A DNA stretch of 64,000 nt from Turneriella parva DSM 21527 (lineage in GTDB: Bacteria > Spirochaetota > Leptospiria > Turneriellales > Turneriellaceae), in the NCBI RefSeq assembly GCF_000266885.1, contig NC_018020.1, positions 1,054,001 to 1,118,000 on the forward strand, in the 5' to 3' direction. Position 1 is the first letter of the stretch. Each line of letters opens with the position of its first letter. A model generated the notes under the pieces. That model saw only the letters and a list, made by a program, of their open reading frames with translations, was not told where the DNA came from and did no database searches. Below, one piece after another: positions 14,159-55,279 of the stretch. Made by a program: the position numbers and the translations under genes.

Positions 14159-15763
14159 TCAAAAAATCAGCGTGAGACTAATCAGGTGCGCATAGCGCCA
14201 GGCCTGGCCATCTGTGCCATCGAAGTTGAGCACTGGGTAAGCCGAGCCGGGCTTAAACACACCAAAGCCCCAAAAGAACTGCAGGTCGGCCATCGGGTTG
14301 AATGTCACCGCGAGATCACCCGCATGACCCACATCGCTGCTCGCCTCAGTCGCCGCCGGGTCAGAGATGCCGCCCGGCGCGACGCTTTTGCGGTAATAGC
14401 TGTATTTGAGCTGCACGGCGAGGTTACGAAGGGCAAAGTTCGGCTTCAGCGGACGAAAGTACGTGCCGAGCCTTACGACTTGCAGGTTGGCGAGTCGCGG
14501 CTTTAACGCAAGACCACCAGAGAAGCTGCCGAAGTTGTGAAACGCGGTATAAGAGCCGTCGGTATTCGACTGCGAAGCATTCGTCATGCGTGAGGCATCC
14601 GCATCGCCTGAGCCCGCTGCAACTTCAGCAGTCAGTTGTGAATCGTATTGCGTCAGAACGGGAAGATTATAGGTGAAATTCACGAGAGCGGCCATGGCAG
14701 AAATTGTCGCCGGCGCAGAGACACCGTTGAGCACGAGATTGTACGTACTGCCACCCTGGTAGATCATATCTGCACGATAGCGCAGGTTCGAATTCACGAT
14801 ATATCCCCTCAGACCCAAACCGCCATACCAGGGATGATACGCATACTTCGTGCGTGAGGCATCTTCGCTAATCATGTCGCGCGAATAGAGCGCGTATGCC
14901 GTCGCCTGCGCACCGAGGTACTCTGGCGTATAATATTCAGCGGCGAAAAATATGCGCCGGCCAGAATTTTGCACACCCGAATCGGGCAAAAGGTTCGGCG
15001 TATTCACGAATGGCCCCGGGTCACCGTTGCAACCTGTGACATTCAACGCGCAGGCTGCGGCGCCATATTCGGCCGAATAGGTGGCAAAGCCGCGCAGTTG
15101 CCCGAACGGAAACCTGCCCGTGTAGCCAAAACCGTCGGCAAAGTTGGCGAATAACAGGCCCTGCTCGATCATGTAGAAACTGCGGCCTGCAGTGAAAGTA
15201 TGCCGGTCATATTTTGCTTCGGCCGCGAGTATTTCGAAGCTGCCGGTGCCCTTCGTCTGCTGCCGAGCGCCGATGGGTTCGATATAGTGCTTCACAGTCA
15301 AGAGACCGCGCGCCGTGGCGCTGTATTTTTCGTTGTAGGCGTACTTAGCGAACGGGCGATAAAAGCCGGCGAAGAGTCCAGGGTTGATGACCGGGTCGAT
15401 ATAATACGTGTTCGTTGCCATAAGTCCACCGCGCAGATAGTGGTGGTTCTGTGGCTCGTCTGCGTCTGCGGGCGGTGGGGTCACAACCAGTGCCGGCGCA
15501 CTCTCATTCTTGGTGGATTCGACCTCTGGCTTAGTTTCAGGTTTTGCTTCAGATTTCACCTCGGGGTTTTCATCGGCTTCGTCGTCACTCTCAGAAGCCG
15601 GCGCAGAAACAGGTGGCGAAACTTTCTTTGGCGGGGCGGCTTCAGAACCCGCGGCAGGCTTGGCAACCGGGGGCTTCACGGCAGGCTTAGCTTGTGCAAT
15701 CAGTGGTGCAACCAAGACGGCACACAGCAGCGCGAGAGAAATAGAGTACAATCGAACTTTCAT
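14159..15763 (-). CDS. Porin-like outer-membrane beta-barrel with Pro/Glu/Lys-rich N-terminal linker
   Basis: About 534 residues from the ATG at 15763 (a second ATG at 15769 and a GTG at 15772 are in frame; AG-rich sequence is best spaced for 15763). A signal peptide (cleavage after LIAQA) is followed by ~75 residues of low complexity rich in Pro, Lys, Glu and Ala, probably periplasmic or peptidoglycan-spanning. A ~400-residue barrel then begins at HHYLRGGLMATNTYYID, with many alternating strands and a final HLISLTLIF. It resembles alginate-export-type porins only by general pattern. It overlaps the stop of the secreted protein upstream, so the two are likely coupled. Confidence 0.75.
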   Translation of the reverse strand: MKVRLYSISLALLCAVLVAPLIAQAKPAVKPPVAKPAAGSEAAPPKKVSPPVSAPASESDDEADENPEVKSEAKPETKPEVESTKNESAPALVVTPPPADADEPQNHHYLRGGLMATNTYYIDPVINPGLFAGFYRPFAKYAYNEKYSATARGLLTVKHYIEPIGARQQTKGTGSFEILAAEAKYDRHTFTAGRSFYMIEQGLLFANFADGFGYTGRFPFGQLRGFATYSAEYGAAACALNVTGCNGDPGPFVNTPNLLPDSGVQNSGRRIFFAAEYYTPEYLGAQATAYALYSRDMISEDASRTKYAYHPWYGGLGLRGYIVNSNLRYRADMIYQGGSTYNLVLNGVSAPATISAMAALVNFTYNLPVLTQYDSQLTAEVAAGSGDADASRMTNASQSNTDGSYTAFHNFGSFSGGLALKPRLANLQVVRLGTYFRPLKPNFALRNLAVQLKYSYYRKSVAPGGISDPAATEASSDVGHAGDLAVTFNPMADLQFFWGFGVFKPGSAYPVLNFDGTDGQAWRYAHLISLTLIF

Positions 15764-15768
15764 GGGCA

Positions 15769-16410
15769 TCACTTGTCTTCAGCCGGCGGCGCGGCCGGTT
15801 TAGGTTCGTCTGCTTTTTCTTCAGATTTTTTCTCGGGCTCAAGTGGCTTGGTCTTCTGTTCCATTTCGGGGTAAGTCTCGAAACCAAATTCTTTGTACGG
15901 ATTCTTTGGCAGCATCCAGGTTGATTGTTCTTGCGCACGCTGCATCGCGATATCCATAATTGTCACCAACTCTTCGCCGCTTAGGTTATCCCAACTATTC
16001 GAGCCTTTTTCGATCAGAGAAAGAATTTCAGCATTTTGGATTGCGTACCATTCTATACCGGTCAGCCGAAAGAGCAGGGTTTTTTCGAGGTTGTAAAGAT
16101 TCAGAACGGCTTTCGCGACCGCACCCTTGGTCACAGGTTTCAGATGAATATGCCCCACCGAGGTGGTATCGTATATTTTGAGCTCGGCCAGGCGCGCGCA
16201 GCGCTCTTCGTCGGTATTATACTTCTCAAGCTCATTGCGGTGAATCAGCACCATTTTGCAGAGGTCTGAGAAGGTGGCTTTTTTGGTGACGGTAATTGCA
16301 CGGAGCGCCGAAAGCTCTTCATCGAGAATGAGGTTTTCGCTGAGGGGCTGCGCAGCGGCGGCTAACGCCAGCATCACCGACGCTGTTGCGATTCTGAGTA
16401 AGTCTTTCAT
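15769..16410 (-). CDS. Secreted protein of unknown function, coupled to porin-like barrel
   Basis: A 213-residue exported protein: signal peptide MKDLLRIATASVMLALAAAAQ, a mostly helical body (LSENLILDEELSALRAITV, then KAVLNLYNLEKTLLFRLTGIEW), and a charged Pro/Glu/Lys-rich tail (EKKSEEKADEPKPAAPP) like the linker of the next protein. No family recognised. The stop overlaps the start region of the porin-like gene, and the propeller lipoprotein gene ends 6 bases upstream, so 21672-14159 may be one operon (fecR-like, propeller lipoprotein, this gene, porin). Confidence 0.7.
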   Translation of the reverse strand: MKDLLRIATASVMLALAAAAQPLSENLILDEELSALRAITVTKKATFSDLCKMVLIHRNELEKYNTDEERCARLAELKIYDTTSVGHIHLKPVTKGAVAKAVLNLYNLEKTLLFRLTGIEWYAIQNAEILSLIEKGSNSWDNLSGEELVTIMDIAMQRAQEQSTWMLPKNPYKEFGFETYPEMEQKTKPLEPEKKSEEKADEPKPAAPPAEDK

Positions 16411-47407: not shown

Positions 47408-47474
47408 AGTCCCATCGGATACGTTTGGACTCCCGTAATGGCACGGACGGGCTTCGGTGAGCGTTATTACACGT
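47408..47474 (+). promoter_or_regulatory. 67-nt conserved operator-promoter block, site C
   Basis: AGTCC (47408-47412) and GGACT (47427-47431) flank CGGATA (47416-47421). TGGCAC is at 47439-47444 and GCGTTATTAC at 47461-47470. Spacings to the ATG at 47475 (59, 36 and 14 nt) equal those at sites B and D. No Shine-Dalgarno sequence. Confidence 0.68.
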
Positions 47475-50400
47475 ATGCAAAAACGCCGGTTTCTGATCAT
47501 TGTGGTGGCCTTAGGGCTCAACTATTGCGCTGGTGGAGTATTCAATTCCAACACAAGCTACTCGAAAAACAAACAAAATGATGAAAACCATGCGTTCAAT
47601 GAGGCCACATTTCGCGGCGCCATCGGCGAAGAAAAATATAATGCGCTTTTTGGCGGTGCGGCAGACGCAGATCTCAAGCTACTGCTCTACGGTGTCGGGC
47701 AGTCGAACGCGATAGCGCTCGTCAATGCCGTCACCGATGTGAACCGCATTTCACAGATTCTGAATGCACCCGACGCAGTATCGTCGACGAAGCTGGTTCA
47801 GCTGATCAACTCGGTCGACGCACACATACGTGAAGGCAGAAAATATACTGCTTTGGCAGAACCTAACGACACGCTGCGCAAGATATACACGCTGGTCAAT
47901 AACGTCGACAGCGCCTCTTCGATCAAGAGCGTCATTCTCGGCATAGCATCTCAACCCGCAGACCCTCAGGCGTTCAATGCAATCGAGCGCCTTGCGCTGC
48001 TCGTGGCATTGACCAATGAAACGAAAAATGTGATCCCTAAGCTGCTCAATGCCATAGTCACTCCCGAGCCAACGTACAACCTCGATACCCCGAACCTACT
48101 TAAGCTATTGAGGGTGCTCAACGAGACCCATGACATCGCGAGACTCGCTCACCTCATCAACGGCATCGACGATGGTGTGCCTGCCGCCACGGTCGGCGCC
48201 GGGGTCGTCAATGTCGCGAACCTAATTCGCACACTGAATCACTCTGGCATAGATCGCGTCATCGAGCTCTTGAACGATGCAGCGGTGAATATCGATCATA
48301 TCTGCCAGATGATGAATACCTTGTCGTTGAACGGTATTGCCTTGTCGAACAGCGACAACTATGCGGGCACCCCGGACTGGGCAGTGCCTTCTCAGGTACA
48401 CAATTGGGCTTCGTACACCTCTTACTCCTCAACGGGAAACTGGTATTTCACGTCTGGTACGGGTTTCTTGAATTTTCATATGGCACCAACACCGGCCGCG
48501 AAGTACGCAGTTCTGCATACCAAGCTGCGCCTTCTCGCAGCCGGCACATTAAGTTTCAATTTGAACATCGAATCGCTCGCTGGCGGCTCTCAGGTCTCCG
48601 CAGCCATCACCGGATGTACGAATGACAATCAGACACGCACCACTGCCGGCAACCATGCGATCTCGCTCAACCTTTCTGCAGGCATTTGCCACCTCAAAAT
48701 TATCGCCAAAGGCTCAGGTGGATATATCGCGATCTCAAATATTGTCGCCCCCGGTTCGCAGGGCGCCGACCGCAGCCCAGCCGAAAAAATCGCCGTGTTG
48801 CTCAATCAGATAGATGTGCAGGGGACCGGCACGCTTGCGCAGATTCTCAGCTCTGCCGTTGGTGCAGGGCAGGCTCTGAGCTCCTCAGGGCTAACGAACC
48901 TTATTGCCTTGATCGAGCGAGCGCACTTTCCCGCTGACCTGAATGCAACCCCGAGGCTCGTGACGCTGATAAACGGCATCACGAATGTCGATGTTCTGCG
49001 CCGCATCGTCAACGGTATCTCGCCTACCGGCACCCGCCAGCTCACCGAAATAGCAAATTTCTTAGCCGACCTGAACAAGGGTGCGGGTTTTATCAACCGC
49101 CTTTACGCAGAAGATACCCCGAAAGTTTTTGCGGTGATCAATGCTCTGACGCCCGGCGCGACCTGGTCACTGATCGACACGCTCGACAATCTGGCGGCTG
49201 ATCGAGTGCCCCATCTTGTTAGTTTCATCAGACTCGTTTCAGACGTGAGCCATTTCAGCACAATTCTCAACACGCTATCGCCTGTGCATTACACGGTTCG
49301 ACCGGGAGTATCCACGTCATATTTGCCATCGGCCTCTGGAGGGCAGAAGCTCGCGGATTTTCTATCCCTCGTCATCACTGGCGGTTCGATGACCGTCGAA
49401 AACGAAATCGTTCGCCTCTCTAATGACATCGCTGCGGGAGGCGGCTCGCATAATCTGGCGCTACTCTTGAGCGCGTTAGATCCGAATGCTCCACAGGCAT
49501 CAGGGGTTCAGCGCCTTTACGCTCTGGTAGATAGCCTGAAATCTCAAGCCTGGCCAAGATACAACCATGCTTTCGACTTAAGTGACGGCGGTGCAGACCA
49601 CACGGCAGGCGGCGATACAGCAAGTTCGGGGGATCATTTTGGCCGCCTCACGACGCTTGCGAACAGTCTAACCGGCGATGGCCCCGCCATCATGGCGGCG
49701 ATGGTGAACTACGTAGACCAGAGCCAGTTCCCGAAGCTGACACAGCTCGTAGCCACCGCGCGCAGAATTAAATACGTTTCCGATCTCGCGAGCAGACTCA
49801 CAAATCTGGAACTCTTGATACAGGCAATTGCGCCCGCTGACATGACGCAGATGGTTCATATACTGAACGGAATAGGCGATTCAACGCAGAATGGCGACAA
49901 GCCAGCTAAAGCAATAGGTGATATGTTCATCTTTGTCGATGCCATGAACAGGCTAGCCTATCATCCGAATGGCTCGCCTCGCCCCATTGCAAAGCAACTT
50001 AACATTGTGCAGCTCATAAACCAGGTGAATAAATGCGGCCTGCATCCTGCGAGCGCCGAAGACCATATTTGGCCCAAACAATATATCAATGAACTCAGCG
50101 GTTCGTGTACCGGCACCGGGTATGACAACTGGCGCAAGAGAGCCACGAATGTGATGCTGCGACTCAACAACGCAAGCGGGTTGGCCGTACTGGTTGGAGA
50201 TATCAACGATCTGAATAAAGTGATCTTGCTCATGAACGGTGGTCTCAATGAGTGGGCTCTCGGTCGCTTGGTTAATCTGATTCCCGGTGAAGTTATGCTC
50301 GTTCATCTCAATAACCTGAACTTGCCTGCAGGCCCCCCGGTCGGGATTACGGGAAGCGCCGCACCGAATGCCGTCGAGCGGTCGCTCATCTACATGATCA

Positions 50401-51305
50401 ACACGATGCATCCCGACGACATTGCCCGGCTTGTGCATTACGGTACGGGAATCGGCCGAGGCACACGGTGGAAAAGACGTGTCGAATGGTTTGGCGAGGT
50501 TCCCTATGACAAGGGTTATGCCGAAGAAACGGATGCCTGCGGCGGAGAATGGCGTGTGGGCATATACTACGGCTATACCTGCTACCAGCATTACAAGACA
50601 GATCGACGCGCTACTAATTCAGGATGCAACTATTATCGCGGCGTTGGCCCTGCCCGAATGGCCGCATTTCTCAATATCGAACGAGGCTTTCATCTGAGCT
50701 TTCTTGTCAATAAATATGGCCCGCGGGTGATGACTGCAGCCGTTGGGTGTGGCACTGCACTCACGAGCCAAGTTATTGTCGCGAACGACCTCTCGCGCAG
50801 CGGCGCTATTCCACCATCGGAAAGCGTTACAATCCACCAGCTGGGATACACGCATAATTACGGGGCATCTTCCCTGAATGCGTGCACGACCGATTATGGC
50901 CGAGGCACAAATTACTCGCGGGGCATAGTTCACTATAATGCGGGTTGGGCGCATGGAGTTGTCGACTGGAATGCAAATCGCCGCGGTTACCTGCCCGAGG
51001 TGTACCTGTCGGGTGGGTTCTATCCTGTTTGGGCATTGAATCCGCATTCGAGTATATTGGACTTTGGATTAATATTCGCCCCCAATGATCCAGCGCCGGG
51101 AACCAATCTCGTGTTTGCCGGACGTGTATTGGACAATCTCATCTATGACAAGCTGGGTCTGAATTACGGATTGTTGCCTTCGTCAACACTACCGGATACA
51201 GCCGCAAGTACACCCGCCGACTGCGATGTCGCGCCGAATGTAAACCCGAATGATGCGGGTAGCAACAATGCAATCTCAGGCCCATGGGGCCAGGCCCCCA
51301 ATTGA
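47475..51305 (+). CDS. Giant helical-repeat lipoprotein (LLN repeats), paralogue 2
   Basis: A 1,276-residue lipoprotein (MQKRRFLIIVVALGLNYC, lipid Cys18), co-linear with the 40795 protein along its whole length: AGGVFNSNTSYSKNKQND, FRGAIGEEKYNALFGGA, then L-x-x-L-[LVI]-N repeats (NLLKLLRVLNETHDIARLAHLIN). A beta-rich insertion is at ~300-430 (HNWASYTSY..., LSFNLNIES, IAISNIVAPGSQGADRS), then more repeats and a C-terminal domain with GCNYYRGVGPARMAAFLN. A GTG six codons upstream is in frame but lies inside the conserved block. The pair is old enough to differ throughout yet keep layout, suggesting both are functional. Next gene starts 7 bases after the stop. Confidence 0.8.
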   Translation: MQKRRFLIIVVALGLNYCAGGVFNSNTSYSKNKQNDENHAFNEATFRGAIGEEKYNALFGGAADADLKLLLYGVGQSNAIALVNAVTDVNRISQILNAPDAVSSTKLVQLINSVDAHIREGRKYTALAEPNDTLRKIYTLVNNVDSASSIKSVILGIASQPADPQAFNAIERLALLVALTNETKNVIPKLLNAIVTPEPTYNLDTPNLLKLLRVLNETHDIARLAHLINGIDDGVPAATVGAGVVNVANLIRTLNHSGIDRVIELLNDAAVNIDHICQMMNTLSLNGIALSNSDNYAGTPDWAVPSQVHNWASYTSYSSTGNWYFTSGTGFLNFHMAPTPAAKYAVLHTKLRLLAAGTLSFNLNIESLAGGSQVSAAITGCTNDNQTRTTAGNHAISLNLSAGICHLKIIAKGSGGYIAISNIVAPGSQGADRSPAEKIAVLLNQIDVQGTGTLAQILSSAVGAGQALSSSGLTNLIALIERAHFPADLNATPRLVTLINGITNVDVLRRIVNGISPTGTRQLTEIANFLADLNKGAGFINRLYAEDTPKVFAVINALTPGATWSLIDTLDNLAADRVPHLVSFIRLVSDVSHFSTILNTLSPVHYTVRPGVSTSYLPSASGGQKLADFLSLVITGGSMTVENEIVRLSNDIAAGGGSHNLALLLSALDPNAPQASGVQRLYALVDSLKSQAWPRYNHAFDLSDGGADHTAGGDTASSGDHFGRLTTLANSLTGDGPAIMAAMVNYVDQSQFPKLTQLVATARRIKYVSDLASRLTNLELLIQAIAPADMTQMVHILNGIGDSTQNGDKPAKAIGDMFIFVDAMNRLAYHPNGSPRPIAKQLNIVQLINQVNKCGLHPASAEDHIWPKQYINELSGSCTGTGYDNWRKRATNVMLRLNNASGLAVLVGDINDLNKVILLMNGGLNEWALGRLVNLIPGEVMLVHLNNLNLPAGPPVGITGSAAPNAVERSLIYMINTMHPDDIARLVHYGTGIGRGTRWKRRVEWFGEVPYDKGYAEETDACGGEWRVGIYYGYTCYQHYKTDRRATNSGCNYYRGVGPARMAAFLNIERGFHLSFLVNKYGPRVMTAAVGCGTALTSQVIVANDLSRSGAIPPSESVTIHQLGYTHNYGASSLNACTTDYGRGTNYSRGIVHYNAGWAHGVVDWNANRRGYLPEVYLSGGFYPVWALNPHSSILDFGLIFAPNDPAPGTNLVFAGRVLDNLIYDKLGLNYGLLPSSTLPDTAASTPADCDVAPNVNPNDAGSNNAISGPWGQAPN

Positions 51306-51312
51306 GGCAATA

Positions 51313-52194
51313 ATGGAATCAGAAAACCTACACCTGCGAATAGTCAGCCAACTTCAGCCACCGCAAAGCAAGAATATTCAGATTAAACCTCACCGCATTG
51401 CGGTTGGGTTCGACGACACGCTACCAAAACATTGGTTCGGGAATAGCGCTTTTCTCACACATCTGCTAAACTCATGGACGATTATTTTTCCCGATATGGA
51501 ACTCTATTTTATACGCTGGGCAAAAAAATCGTTAGATAGTGTTACAGACATGAAAGTCCGCAAAGACATTCTCGGCTTCATTGCTCAAGAGATGCAACAC
51601 GCCAAGCAGCATGAAAAAGTCTGGCAAACCCTTGAAAACCAAGGCTATAACATAAAACCGGCCGTCTGGCTGTTGCGTAAAGTCGGTTTCGATACAATCG
51701 AAAAAAGTTTGCCTGACAATTTTAACTACGCGGCGATTGCCGGGTTAGAGCATTTCACCGCTCTTTTTGCCGAAATCGGCCTTGAGAACCCACAACTTCT
51801 CGAAACGATGCATCCGCACATGCGGCTACTTTTCGAGTGACATGCTGCTGAAGAGATTGAACACAAAGCCGTTGCGTTCGACCTGCTGGAGCAAGTTGAT
51901 TCCCGGTATTCAACGAGGGTCATCGCAATGTGGGGAGCGTTTGCAACCCTGTACGCTCTCACTTTTGGCAATACGTTTTATATGATGTGGCAGGATAAAT
52001 CGATTTTCAAGCTTTCGGAATGGAAAACCATTTATGAGGCTTTGATTAGCGAGCACCAGCTATTGCCCAAAACCATGGTAAAGTTCTTCGAATACTTCAG
52101 CCGCGATTTTCATCCTTGGCAAAAAGATAACTACCATCTCGCCGCAACCATATTCAACCGTCTTTCTGAAGCCATTGGAGGACAAAATGCATAA
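51313..52194 (+). pseudogene. PF10118-type metal-dependent hydrolase-like protein with in-frame TGA
   Basis: A 293-codon frame interrupted once by TGA at 51838-51840 (codon 176). Sequence on both sides belongs to one protein of the COG3687/PF10118 type: FPDMELYFIRWAKK, GFIAQEMQHAKQHEKVW, GLEHFTALFAEIGL before the stop and HAAEEIEHKAVAFDLLEQ after it. In the family as I recall it, Trp precedes HAxEExEHKAVAFD, so TGA most simply reflects TGG changed to TGA. Start ATG 51313 with TGAGG overlapping the previous stop. A second product could initiate at 51928. TGA is an ordinary stop elsewhere here. Probably a recent pseudogene, read-through or a base error. Confidence 0.78.
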
Positions 52195-52196
52195 TT

Positions 52197-52264
52197 ATGT
52201 CCAGGCGGATACTTTCGGACATGCCATTTGGCACTCAAGTGCTTTCCGTTGCGTTATAAAGCCG
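52197..52264 (+). promoter_or_regulatory. 67-nt conserved operator-promoter block, site D
   Basis: ATGTCC (52197-52202) and GGACAT (52217-52222) flank CGGATA (52206-52211). TGGCAC is at 52229-52234 and GCGTTATAAA at 52251-52260. Relative to sites B and C, the outer A-T pair of the inverted repeat is swapped to T-A, keeping complementarity. The block begins right after the 51313 frame ends and heads a five-gene coupled operon. Confidence 0.68.
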
Positions 52265-55200
52265 ATGCGAACAAGAAACTTGAGATTTTTCACGCAGGCA
52301 GTACTGCTTGGGCTTTTGCTGTGCGCTCTGAGCTGCGCCAACGCCGGTTCTACCCTGATCGAGCTGGCCCCCGATTTGCCGCCTTCTCAGGCACCGCTGT
52401 TGTCAAACGCCCCTGGCTCAGGGCCAAGTGGCGGGCCAGTCGAATACAGTTTTTGGATAAAAGACCGTCGGGCAAATGCTCCGGCGGGTTTAGCTGCGTA
52501 TTCGCAGAAGTCAGCGAAAAAACTGGCTTCCACCGCACATTTTGTTCTCTACGGTGATCAATCCGCCCAGCAAATCTTGAACTCTTCCACGGCGAAATTG
52601 TATCTTGATTTTCTTGAACCGCAACTGTCAAACCTGAAGCAGATTTATGGAGATGGTGTCTTTCCTGACCTACAAAAGACAGGCCGCATCGTCATTCTTG
52701 CTCTTGATATTCAAGATGATTACGCAGGTGGGTCATCTGGCTTCATCTCGGGGTATTTTGCGCCACGCGATCTTTTTAACGACGCGTACACCAGCGCACT
52801 TTTCAGCGACACCTCGCTGATCAACTCAGTTTCGCTCGAAACCCTCGCAGAACATGCGGGCCGATCAAATATGCTGCCGATGGTTTATGCCGACGTGAAG
52901 CCTTTTCTCAACGGTGATGCATTCTCTGGCGACTTGCTGAAGTCGCAGAATCTGTTTCGCGAAATGCTGTTACATGAATGTTCGCATCTTTTCACATATT
53001 ATTTTCGGCATGTCTATCGTAACCTGCCGCGCCTGCCCACATTTCTTGCTGAAGGTTTGGCCGAAAATGCGCCGATGCTCACGGCAGGCCTTTTTGCGTC
53101 GCAAAGACTCAGGCTCGCCGACTTCTCAGACCCGATCGTTCAATATGCCTTCAAAACGCCAGTTACATTGAGCCAATGGATTCAGGGAGAAAGCGAAAAG
53201 CCCGGTTACGTGCGTGCGAACCTCTTCATGAACTACCTGCGGCATCGGTCGCTGGCAAACGCCGGTCAGGTGACCAGGCAGATCGTGAGCAATAACGGCG
53301 ACATGGTTTCGCTCAATACTTTGATCGGTTCGTCTGGAATCGCCGGCGGCATGAGCACGCTCTACCATGATTTCGTAGTCTCGTTGTACATAGCTTCAGG
53401 GGGATTTAATCTTCAAACGTATATTGAAGCCGGCACAACACGCGATGTCAATGCCGGCAGTCCACAAACCCTGAAACAATCGTTGAGCTTTGCCTCGGCG
53501 GGCATAAATAAATTTGGCGAAAGCGGTGTGGCATTTTTACCAGCGCTGAATCAGGCCCCACTGCCTGCAGCCTTTGCCGCGACCACATGCTTACCGCCAT
53601 TGTCGTTTCAGATCTATCATTATTACACACTGGCGGGTGAAACCTTTAAACCGACAGAAATTGGGGCCGATGGAGGACTCAAATTCGTTGTCGCTTACCA
53701 TGCGAACAGCTCTCTGAAGAATATCGAGCTGCACAAGTATAGCGCAACAGACAATATTTCGCTCACAGCAAATGTCATCAGTGGTGGTGTCTTGCGTAGT
53801 TTTTACCACATTATCGTTATCAATGACCAGCTCACGGGAAGCTGCAAATCGCCGGGCAATCTGCCGCGCAATCTCAACGAAGGCAATATTGCCGCCTGGG
53901 TGGGCGGAGGTAAATCGGGCTGGCAAGGCGGCCCTGGGGCAGCCAATGGCAATTTAGTTGATTACTTCATGCGCACCGCTGGCTTGGCGACGAATATTGC
54001 GCATGCAGGCCGGTCGAAGACATATTTCTATACGACCGACTATTTGAATCATAAAGTCGCACGCTACGAGATGGCCTCTGGTAGTTTTGCCGGTGTACTG
54101 GGTGACCCGCTTCCCCCGTCGGAAAACTCGAACTGCGCAAGAGATTCTGAGCCCCCCGATACCTTTAAACTGGAGAACAGAACCTACCAGAATTATTGCC
54201 GCCGCTCGTTCAACGCGCCCAGGGCAGTTGCGACCACGACGAATGGTGACATTATTGTCGCCGACACCGATAACCACCGTCTCGTACTCTACAGCGCAGA
54301 CGGAGCCTTTGTCGCCTGGTTGGGCGATCAAGCGAGTGATCGGTGGCAGTGCGAGACAGGCAGGTCGCACCCATATTGCTCTGTGGGACAAAATGCTTCA
54401 CCCGTTTCTGCGCATAATCTCGCAGCGGCGCCACTGAAGGTGAACATGTTCTACTATCCAGCTGGCCTCAGCATTGACGAATCGGAAACAACAAAATATA
54501 TCTACGTGAGTAATTACGGAAATTCGCGGATTGTAAGGCGTAATCTTGAGACGGGCGAGTTCGCCGGCTTCATCGGCAACGGTTACGATGCATGGAACAC
54601 CTCAATTACCTTAACCACTGGCGCTACAGGCTCTACCCGCAATTTTCTGCATTCACCGACCGGCATCACGCATGACGAGACGTATATCTACATCGCCGAT
54701 ACCAATAACCACCGCATTTCCCGGTATTTAAAGAATGGCGTGCAAGCAGACCATACGGGCAGCGTACATTCCGTTTTCATCGGCGGCAACACGGTCGGCT
54801 GGCATGATGGCCCAACAAACCAAACCAATGCTGAATCGGGATTTAAGTTTCCCTCGGCGGTGTACCTCGGCGAAATCGAAGGCCTGGACAATCAGGTGCA
54901 TCGCTACCTATTCGTTGCCGATACGGCGAACCACCGTATCTCGCGCATTCTCTTGCGAACTCACGAAAAAGCTAACCCGACAAATATTAGCTGGGCTGCC
55001 GCAAGCCGGGGTTGGCTGGGCGCGGGCTTTCTGAATTGGCAAAGCACCGCAAATGCCTATGACTATTCAGGATTAACCACCTCGCAGCTTTTTCCTCCCG
55101 AATTCATCTATAGCCCGCAGGCGGTGCTGTTCATGCCCGCATCTGCTTCGGGGCTTACACGGGACTACCTGCTCGTTACGGCCACGTACAGCGCGCGGGT

Positions 55201-55279
55201 CTCTCGCTGGAACTTCAACTGTCTGTGGCAGCAAGACGAGCAGACAACTTTCAACAAAAACTGCGCAGGTGAACCATGA
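52265..55279 (+). CDS. Lipoprotein fusing an HExxH metallopeptidase domain to NHL-type repeats
   Basis: A 1,004-residue lipoprotein (lipid Cys24; VLLGLLLCALSC). Residues ~60-400 look like a zinc metallopeptidase of the gluzincin/M30 (hyicolysin-like) type: MLLHECSHLF gives H237-E238-x-x-H241 and FLAEGLAEN supplies the downstream Glu. From ~600 on there are NHL propeller repeats (FNAPRAVATTTNGDIIVADTDNHRLVLYS, GITHDETYIYIADTNNHRISRY, LFVADTANHRISRI), usually ligand- or protein-binding. The ATG at 52265 is fixed by the upstream block; the frame extends to 52175 but that is regulatory sequence. It overlaps the next gene by ATGA. Confidence 0.82.
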   Translation: MRTRNLRFFTQAVLLGLLLCALSCANAGSTLIELAPDLPPSQAPLLSNAPGSGPSGGPVEYSFWIKDRRANAPAGLAAYSQKSAKKLASTAHFVLYGDQSAQQILNSSTAKLYLDFLEPQLSNLKQIYGDGVFPDLQKTGRIVILALDIQDDYAGGSSGFISGYFAPRDLFNDAYTSALFSDTSLINSVSLETLAEHAGRSNMLPMVYADVKPFLNGDAFSGDLLKSQNLFREMLLHECSHLFTYYFRHVYRNLPRLPTFLAEGLAENAPMLTAGLFASQRLRLADFSDPIVQYAFKTPVTLSQWIQGESEKPGYVRANLFMNYLRHRSLANAGQVTRQIVSNNGDMVSLNTLIGSSGIAGGMSTLYHDFVVSLYIASGGFNLQTYIEAGTTRDVNAGSPQTLKQSLSFASAGINKFGESGVAFLPALNQAPLPAAFAATTCLPPLSFQIYHYYTLAGETFKPTEIGADGGLKFVVAYHANSSLKNIELHKYSATDNISLTANVISGGVLRSFYHIIVINDQLTGSCKSPGNLPRNLNEGNIAAWVGGGKSGWQGGPGAANGNLVDYFMRTAGLATNIAHAGRSKTYFYTTDYLNHKVARYEMASGSFAGVLGDPLPPSENSNCARDSEPPDTFKLENRTYQNYCRRSFNAPRAVATTTNGDIIVADTDNHRLVLYSADGAFVAWLGDQASDRWQCETGRSHPYCSVGQNASPVSAHNLAAAPLKVNMFYYPAGLSIDESETTKYIYVSNYGNSRIVRRNLETGEFAGFIGNGYDAWNTSITLTTGATGSTRNFLHSPTGITHDETYIYIADTNNHRISRYLKNGVQADHTGSVHSVFIGGNTVGWHDGPTNQTNAESGFKFPSAVYLGEIEGLDNQVHRYLFVADTANHRISRILLRTHEKANPTNISWAAASRGWLGAGFLNWQSTANAYDYSGLTTSQLFPPEFIYSPQAVLFMPASASGLTRDYLLVTATYSARVSRWNFNCLWQQDEQTTFNKNCAGEP

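Follow-up and report, generated by a model that had tools for sequence, protein, structure and literature searches.

A single in-frame TGA in a PF10118 gene of Turneriella parva is probably a recent loss-of-function mutation

The dimetal N-oxygenases AurF, CmlI, and DnfA (PF11583) are among the closest described counterparts of the protein family considered here. DnfA has seven ligands (E88, E123, H126, E182, H209, E213, and H216) that are stated to be identical in AurF and CmlI (PMC9478400). With regard to the reading of UGA, G24A is the classical Hirsh mutation, which lets a 5-bp tRNA-Trp(CCA) read this codon, and the same account also covers UGA readers with a 4-bp anticodon stem in which the top pair is lost (PMC13092985). 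The PF10118 gene described here resembles ordinary bacterial nonsense pseudogenes in having one inactivating change and intact paralogues in the genome, but differs from them in that it appears very young and has no second lesion.

The genome of T. parva H(T), DSM 21527, totals 4,409,302 bases and is divided between two contigs, one of which has 4,384,015. The window analysed is a stretch of 64,000 nucleotides corresponding to chromosome positions 1054001-1118000, and contains the following features.

51313..52194, plus strand: PF10118 gene of 294 codons (final TAA counted), interrupted by a single in-frame TGA
51838..51840, plus strand: the in-frame TGA, codon 176; all 42 aligned relatives have TGG (Trp)
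51313..51837, plus strand: N-terminal piece of 175 amino acids, the expected product if UGA terminates; putative ligands E63, E93, H96, and E146 kept
51841..52191, plus strand: C-terminal piece of 117 amino acids carrying putative ligands H177, E181, and H184

A preliminary description of this DNA placed a single in-frame TGA of a PF10118-type protein at 51838-51840, immediately before HAAEEIEHKAVAFD, with coding continuing in the same frame on both sides. Both the position and the adjoining sequence proved exact. The read-through frame encodes 293 residues and matches the PF10118 profile over positions 2-247 of 247 with 250.9 bits (cut-off 33.2), and the halves on either side of the TGA each match PF10118 alone (138.0 and 95.7 bits). 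Because one domain of 247 positions is split by a single stop with both halves in the same frame, a chance frame is impossible. The description also held that relatives have Trp at this site. In our alignment all 42 relatives, among them the eight other PF10118 genes of T. parva, have Trp at codon 176, encoded by TGG every time. Thus, the Trp that precedes HxxEExxH, invariant in intact PF10118 members, is replaced by TGA in the window gene, and a single transition suffices to account for the codon, as had been proposed. A natural break at this site in homologues, which the same description named as a refutation, occurs in none of the 42. The window gene has one stop in the alignment, whereas 41 of the 42 other rows have none. 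The exception is a congener's PF10118 gene (L052; G005:C71:3745-4614, minus strand) that has two TGA codons at the extreme end of the match; these probably reflect a frameshift at the gene end, or the natural end, in a draft contig. Of the nine PF10118 genes in the T. parva genome, only the window gene has an internal stop. Descent of the window gene from the PF10118 family is firm, but it is not an intact member: it shares the full-length match and all 25 other conserved columns with the family, whereas the protein coded is cut at residue 175.

The putative ligands E63, E93, H96, E146, H177, E181, and H184 are invariant in 28 aligned rows. Their order and local spacing (E, ExxH, E, HxxxExxH) are common to AurF, CmlI, and DnfA (PMC9478400). 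At the level of profiles the similarity is slight; the AurF family PF11583 scores 16.2 bits against the window protein, below its cut-off of 29.6, and weak profile matches among the 28 rows were to PF11583 in five, COQ7 in 11, and rubrerythrin in 21. An AlphaFold2 model from the 28 aligned rows is helical and confident, with a mean pLDDT of 90.8. All 50 matches listed by VIA-align were R2, R2-like oxidase (R2lox), AurF, CmlI, or MMOH with Z of 12.2-13.9, a range that helical bundles can reach by arrangement alone. Foldseek with the same model gave no match at E ≤ 0.001. An R2/AurF-type dimetal-carboxylate fold, a helical bundle with E, ExxH, E, and ExxH ligands, is therefore a putative assignment for PF10118 of moderate strength at most; the ligand pattern fits, but the Foldseek result and the Z attainable by helical bundles in general limit the claim. 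A comparison with PDB chains by sequence yielded none that was convincing, the best being demethoxyubiquinone hydroxylase at E 0.41. AurF-like loci were found in five of 149 genomes of the phylum. Four of the five were aligned and the third His of HxxxExxH is missing, so these loci did not serve to build an AurF profile. Literature searches returned one listing for PF10118 and none for COG3687, and of the papers listed for the hydrolase name combined with diiron or ferritin-like (10 of 91), none contains that name. Taking the ligand pattern of AurF, CmlI, and DnfA together with the R2-like bundle of the model, PF10118, currently filed as Metal_hydrol, a "predicted metal-dependent hydrolase", is more likely to be a dimetal oxidase or oxygenase. 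Such an activity is directly testable on the intact paralogues, and this by-product of the analysis is more useful than the stop itself.

The stop is most probably a recent, ordinary loss-of-function nonsense mutation in a presumably redundant PF10118 gene. A G-to-A transition would have changed the invariant TGG of codon 176 to TGA, and termination there would leave a protein of 175 residues that lacks H177, E181, H184, and one core helix. The fragment should be inactive, since three of the seven putative metal ligands would be removed. The first in-frame ATG, GTG, or TTG after the stop is at 51928, beyond the metal-ligand motif, and no in-frame restart downstream of the TGA would be predicted to rescue that motif. 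The loss would be bearable because eight intact PF10118 genes are left in the genome, one of them 57% identical, and these are presumed to be redundant with it. For annotation, the locus would be a fresh pseudogene and not a recoded gene.

The preliminary description also held that the rest of the frame shows no decay and that the event is recent or the codon read through; our comparisons bear out the lack of decay and the recent event. Among columns with at least 90% conservation in the other rows, 25 were testable in the window gene and it retains every one; the other rows themselves depart at 0 to 7 of 26 to 29 such columns. No further in-frame stop was present in 51313-52194. The end branch of the window gene is 0.34, and the paths from the same fork, summed from the tree, are 0.40 (L010) and 0.44 (L015). 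Of the columns invariant among seven clade relatives, the window gene departs in 25 of 126; as a comparison, L015, the outermost clade relative, departs from the other six in 25 of 152. Before the stop, pN was 0.23-0.26 and pS was 0.70-0.87; after the stop, the values were 0.28-0.33 and 0.74-0.96. In both halves pN is far lower than pS, and the rise from before to after the stop resembles that between intact relatives. The values are given as pN and pS because dS was saturated against the relatives checked, which left dN/dS mostly undefined. With 36-37 stops expected per unit of neutral change per site in the window frame, the absence of extra stops alone gives a rough upper bound of approximately 0.08 on the neutral distance since loss, and adding the conserved columns lowers this to less than approximately 0.03, both bounds assuming an even mutation model and ignoring indels. 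The conserved columns kept, the lack of a second stop, and a branch no longer than those of its sisters make a recent event well supported by the alignment and tree. Against the loss reading, such a clean frame is also the look expected of a leaky stop that is in use. The low pN relative to pS in the N-terminal half would fit a stop that was selected and a 175-residue fragment with its own function. However, the C-terminal half is equally undecayed, which a useful fragment does not require, and no relative among the 42 has a break at the site; we regard this explanation as scarcely credible.

We then compared the stop with single-stop genes elsewhere in the genome, using a sample that consisted of the window and 40 other stretches (864 kb, 19.6% of the genome). 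Coding-score thresholds were lowered because strict scores missed the window gene, and the sample was doubled. Of 73 same-frame stop candidates, the Pfam scan covered the 36 whose next start is distant; the other 37, where the next in-frame start lies within five codons, were left out, so that any real case there would go unnoticed. In two of the 36, the window gene and kdpA, the stop falls within a single Pfam domain. The two further genes with a clean single stop are as follows.

G000:C1:339784-339786 (L175 / L171), minus strand: one in-frame TGA in kdpA, whose match (positions 2-548) is clean apart from it
G000:C1:3301204-3301206 (L194:11204-11206), plus strand: in-frame TAA in an Alginate_exp-type porin, C1:3300775-3302229, an otherwise clean frame

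At the kdpA site the four aligned relatives all have other residues (V, V, C, and L), so that this is not a Trp site. A congener's kdpA (L178/L179, G001:C137) is matched by two pieces that overlap, which points to a frameshift or a draft error in that gene. The porin is 54% identical to an intact gene at 14162-15778 of the window (minus strand). Sixteen other matches are listed, some of which do not reach across the site; the stretch around the TAA is stop-free in 15 of them, and the remaining one has a TGA. Ordinary recent nonsense mutation would cover the window gene, kdpA, and the porin. A TGA-specific mechanism acting genome-wide was also considered and is needless, since the sample includes a TAA stop and the second TGA falls where relatives lack Trp. 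The type strain originated from a contaminated Leptospira medium, as stated in its genome paper (PMC3746428), and long laboratory culture may thus explain several clean single-stop genes.

Sampling of these genes also bears on whether the stop was introduced by faulty base calling or consensus building in the 2012 assembly, with TGG as the true codon. The genome paper states an error rate below 1 in 100,000 (PMC3746428). That ceiling allows for about 44 errors over 4.4 Mb; with about 4% of changes being nonsense, one or two false stops would be expected genome-wide. The three clean single-stop genes, found in a 19.6% sample, are more than this ceiling predicts. The assembly combined 1,675x Illumina with 47x 454 coverage and Illumina polishing, and its authors list 30 pseudogenes (PMC3746428). 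A substitution is not known as the typical 454 error. An assembly error is therefore very unlikely.

An alternative to complete loss is that the single tRNA-Trp(CCA) reads this UGA, which is followed by C, at a low level, and that the mutation is only partly damaging. The gene for this tRNA is as follows.

L075:1500-1572 = G000:C1:3002717-3002787: tRNA-Trp(CCA) with A24 and five anticodon-stem pairs, assigned by eye

UGAC is a leaky stop context. UGA is a codon that near-cognate tRNA-Trp can misread, and with Trp inserted there the protein would regain its conserved residue. The tRNA-Trp of Bacillus subtilis also has A24 and misreads UGA. The residue A24 is the one that makes Escherichia coli tRNA-Trp read UGA. 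The A at position 24 of the T. parva tRNA-Trp is the sole reason that keeps low-level reading alive. However, A24 was seen by eye in 26 of 26 tRNA-Trp from 30 loci of this genome and its relatives, which marks it as ancestral rather than as a suppressor gained here, and it proves nothing. The anticodon stem (ACGGT/ACCGT) has all five pairs by eye, and thus is not shortened as it is in the 4-bp readers. TGA is the commonest end of the long coding frames in the sample (TGA 204, TAA 137, and TAG 88; n=429), and general leakiness would burden these genes. The other clean stops, one of them a TAA and one a TGA where relatives have V, C, or L, also argue against it, and the sequence holds no positive evidence for read-through at codon 176. 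We consider leaky read-through unlikely. The fuller proposal that UGA at a conserved Trp is tolerated, with the A24 tRNA-Trp misreading it to give a trickle of normal enzyme so that a low-dose allele persists, we consider quite unlikely.

An in-frame TGA with intact coding on either side is also what programmed recoding would give, whether by selenocysteine, a reassigned code, or mRNA editing. Against this, the residue replaced is Trp and not Cys in 42 of 42 relatives, RF2 is intact, and the only tRNA-Trp seen among the 34 loci scanned was CCA, in one copy. In that scan, 30 of 39 tRNA matches had their own locus and some of the others lay within these or added loci. Neither a tRNA-Sec nor SelB was found in the genome above cut-off; the best tRNA-Sec candidate reached 45.4 bits (cut-off 47) at a locus identified by ARAGORN as tRNA-Ser, and the best SelB candidate 177 bits (cut-off 242) in a 401-amino-acid frame. 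TadA edits the motif TACG, which is absent at the stop (51838-51840). Recoding is thus extremely improbable. Selenocysteine, a code change, and TadA-type editing were rejected on the constant Trp, the lack of a tRNA-Sec or SelB above cut-off, the intact RF2, and the missing TACG.

A further point against loss of function is that the gene may still be transcribed, as it is flanked by two closely spaced open reading frames on the same strand.

47457..51305, plus strand: upstream open reading frame of 1282 amino acids, ending 7 bases before the PF10118 gene
52187..55279, plus strand: downstream open reading frame of 1030 amino acids from its ATG, sharing 8 bases with the end of the PF10118 gene

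Given the 7-base gap and the 8-base overlap, the three genes are probably co-transcribed as one transcript. Of 20 other genomes, 14 contain relatives of the downstream frame; in four genomes (G005, G006, G009, and G011) its best match is on a different contig from the PF10118 matches. No plasmid match to 51200-52400 was found. On the tree, the window gene is sister to a group of seven formed by six relatives (five of the genus and one of another genus of the family) and the T. parva paralogue at C1:3158213-3158989. This paralogue, the one that is 57% identical to the window gene, nests within the congener group, which makes it, rather than the window gene, the counterpart of the sister-genome gene. 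The window gene would then be an older copy that branched before the split from the other genus. No counterpart of it was seen among six congeners, whose genomes are drafts, so that absence there is not proven. The two copies also differ in GC3, which is 0.505 in the window gene compared with 0.718 in the paralogue.
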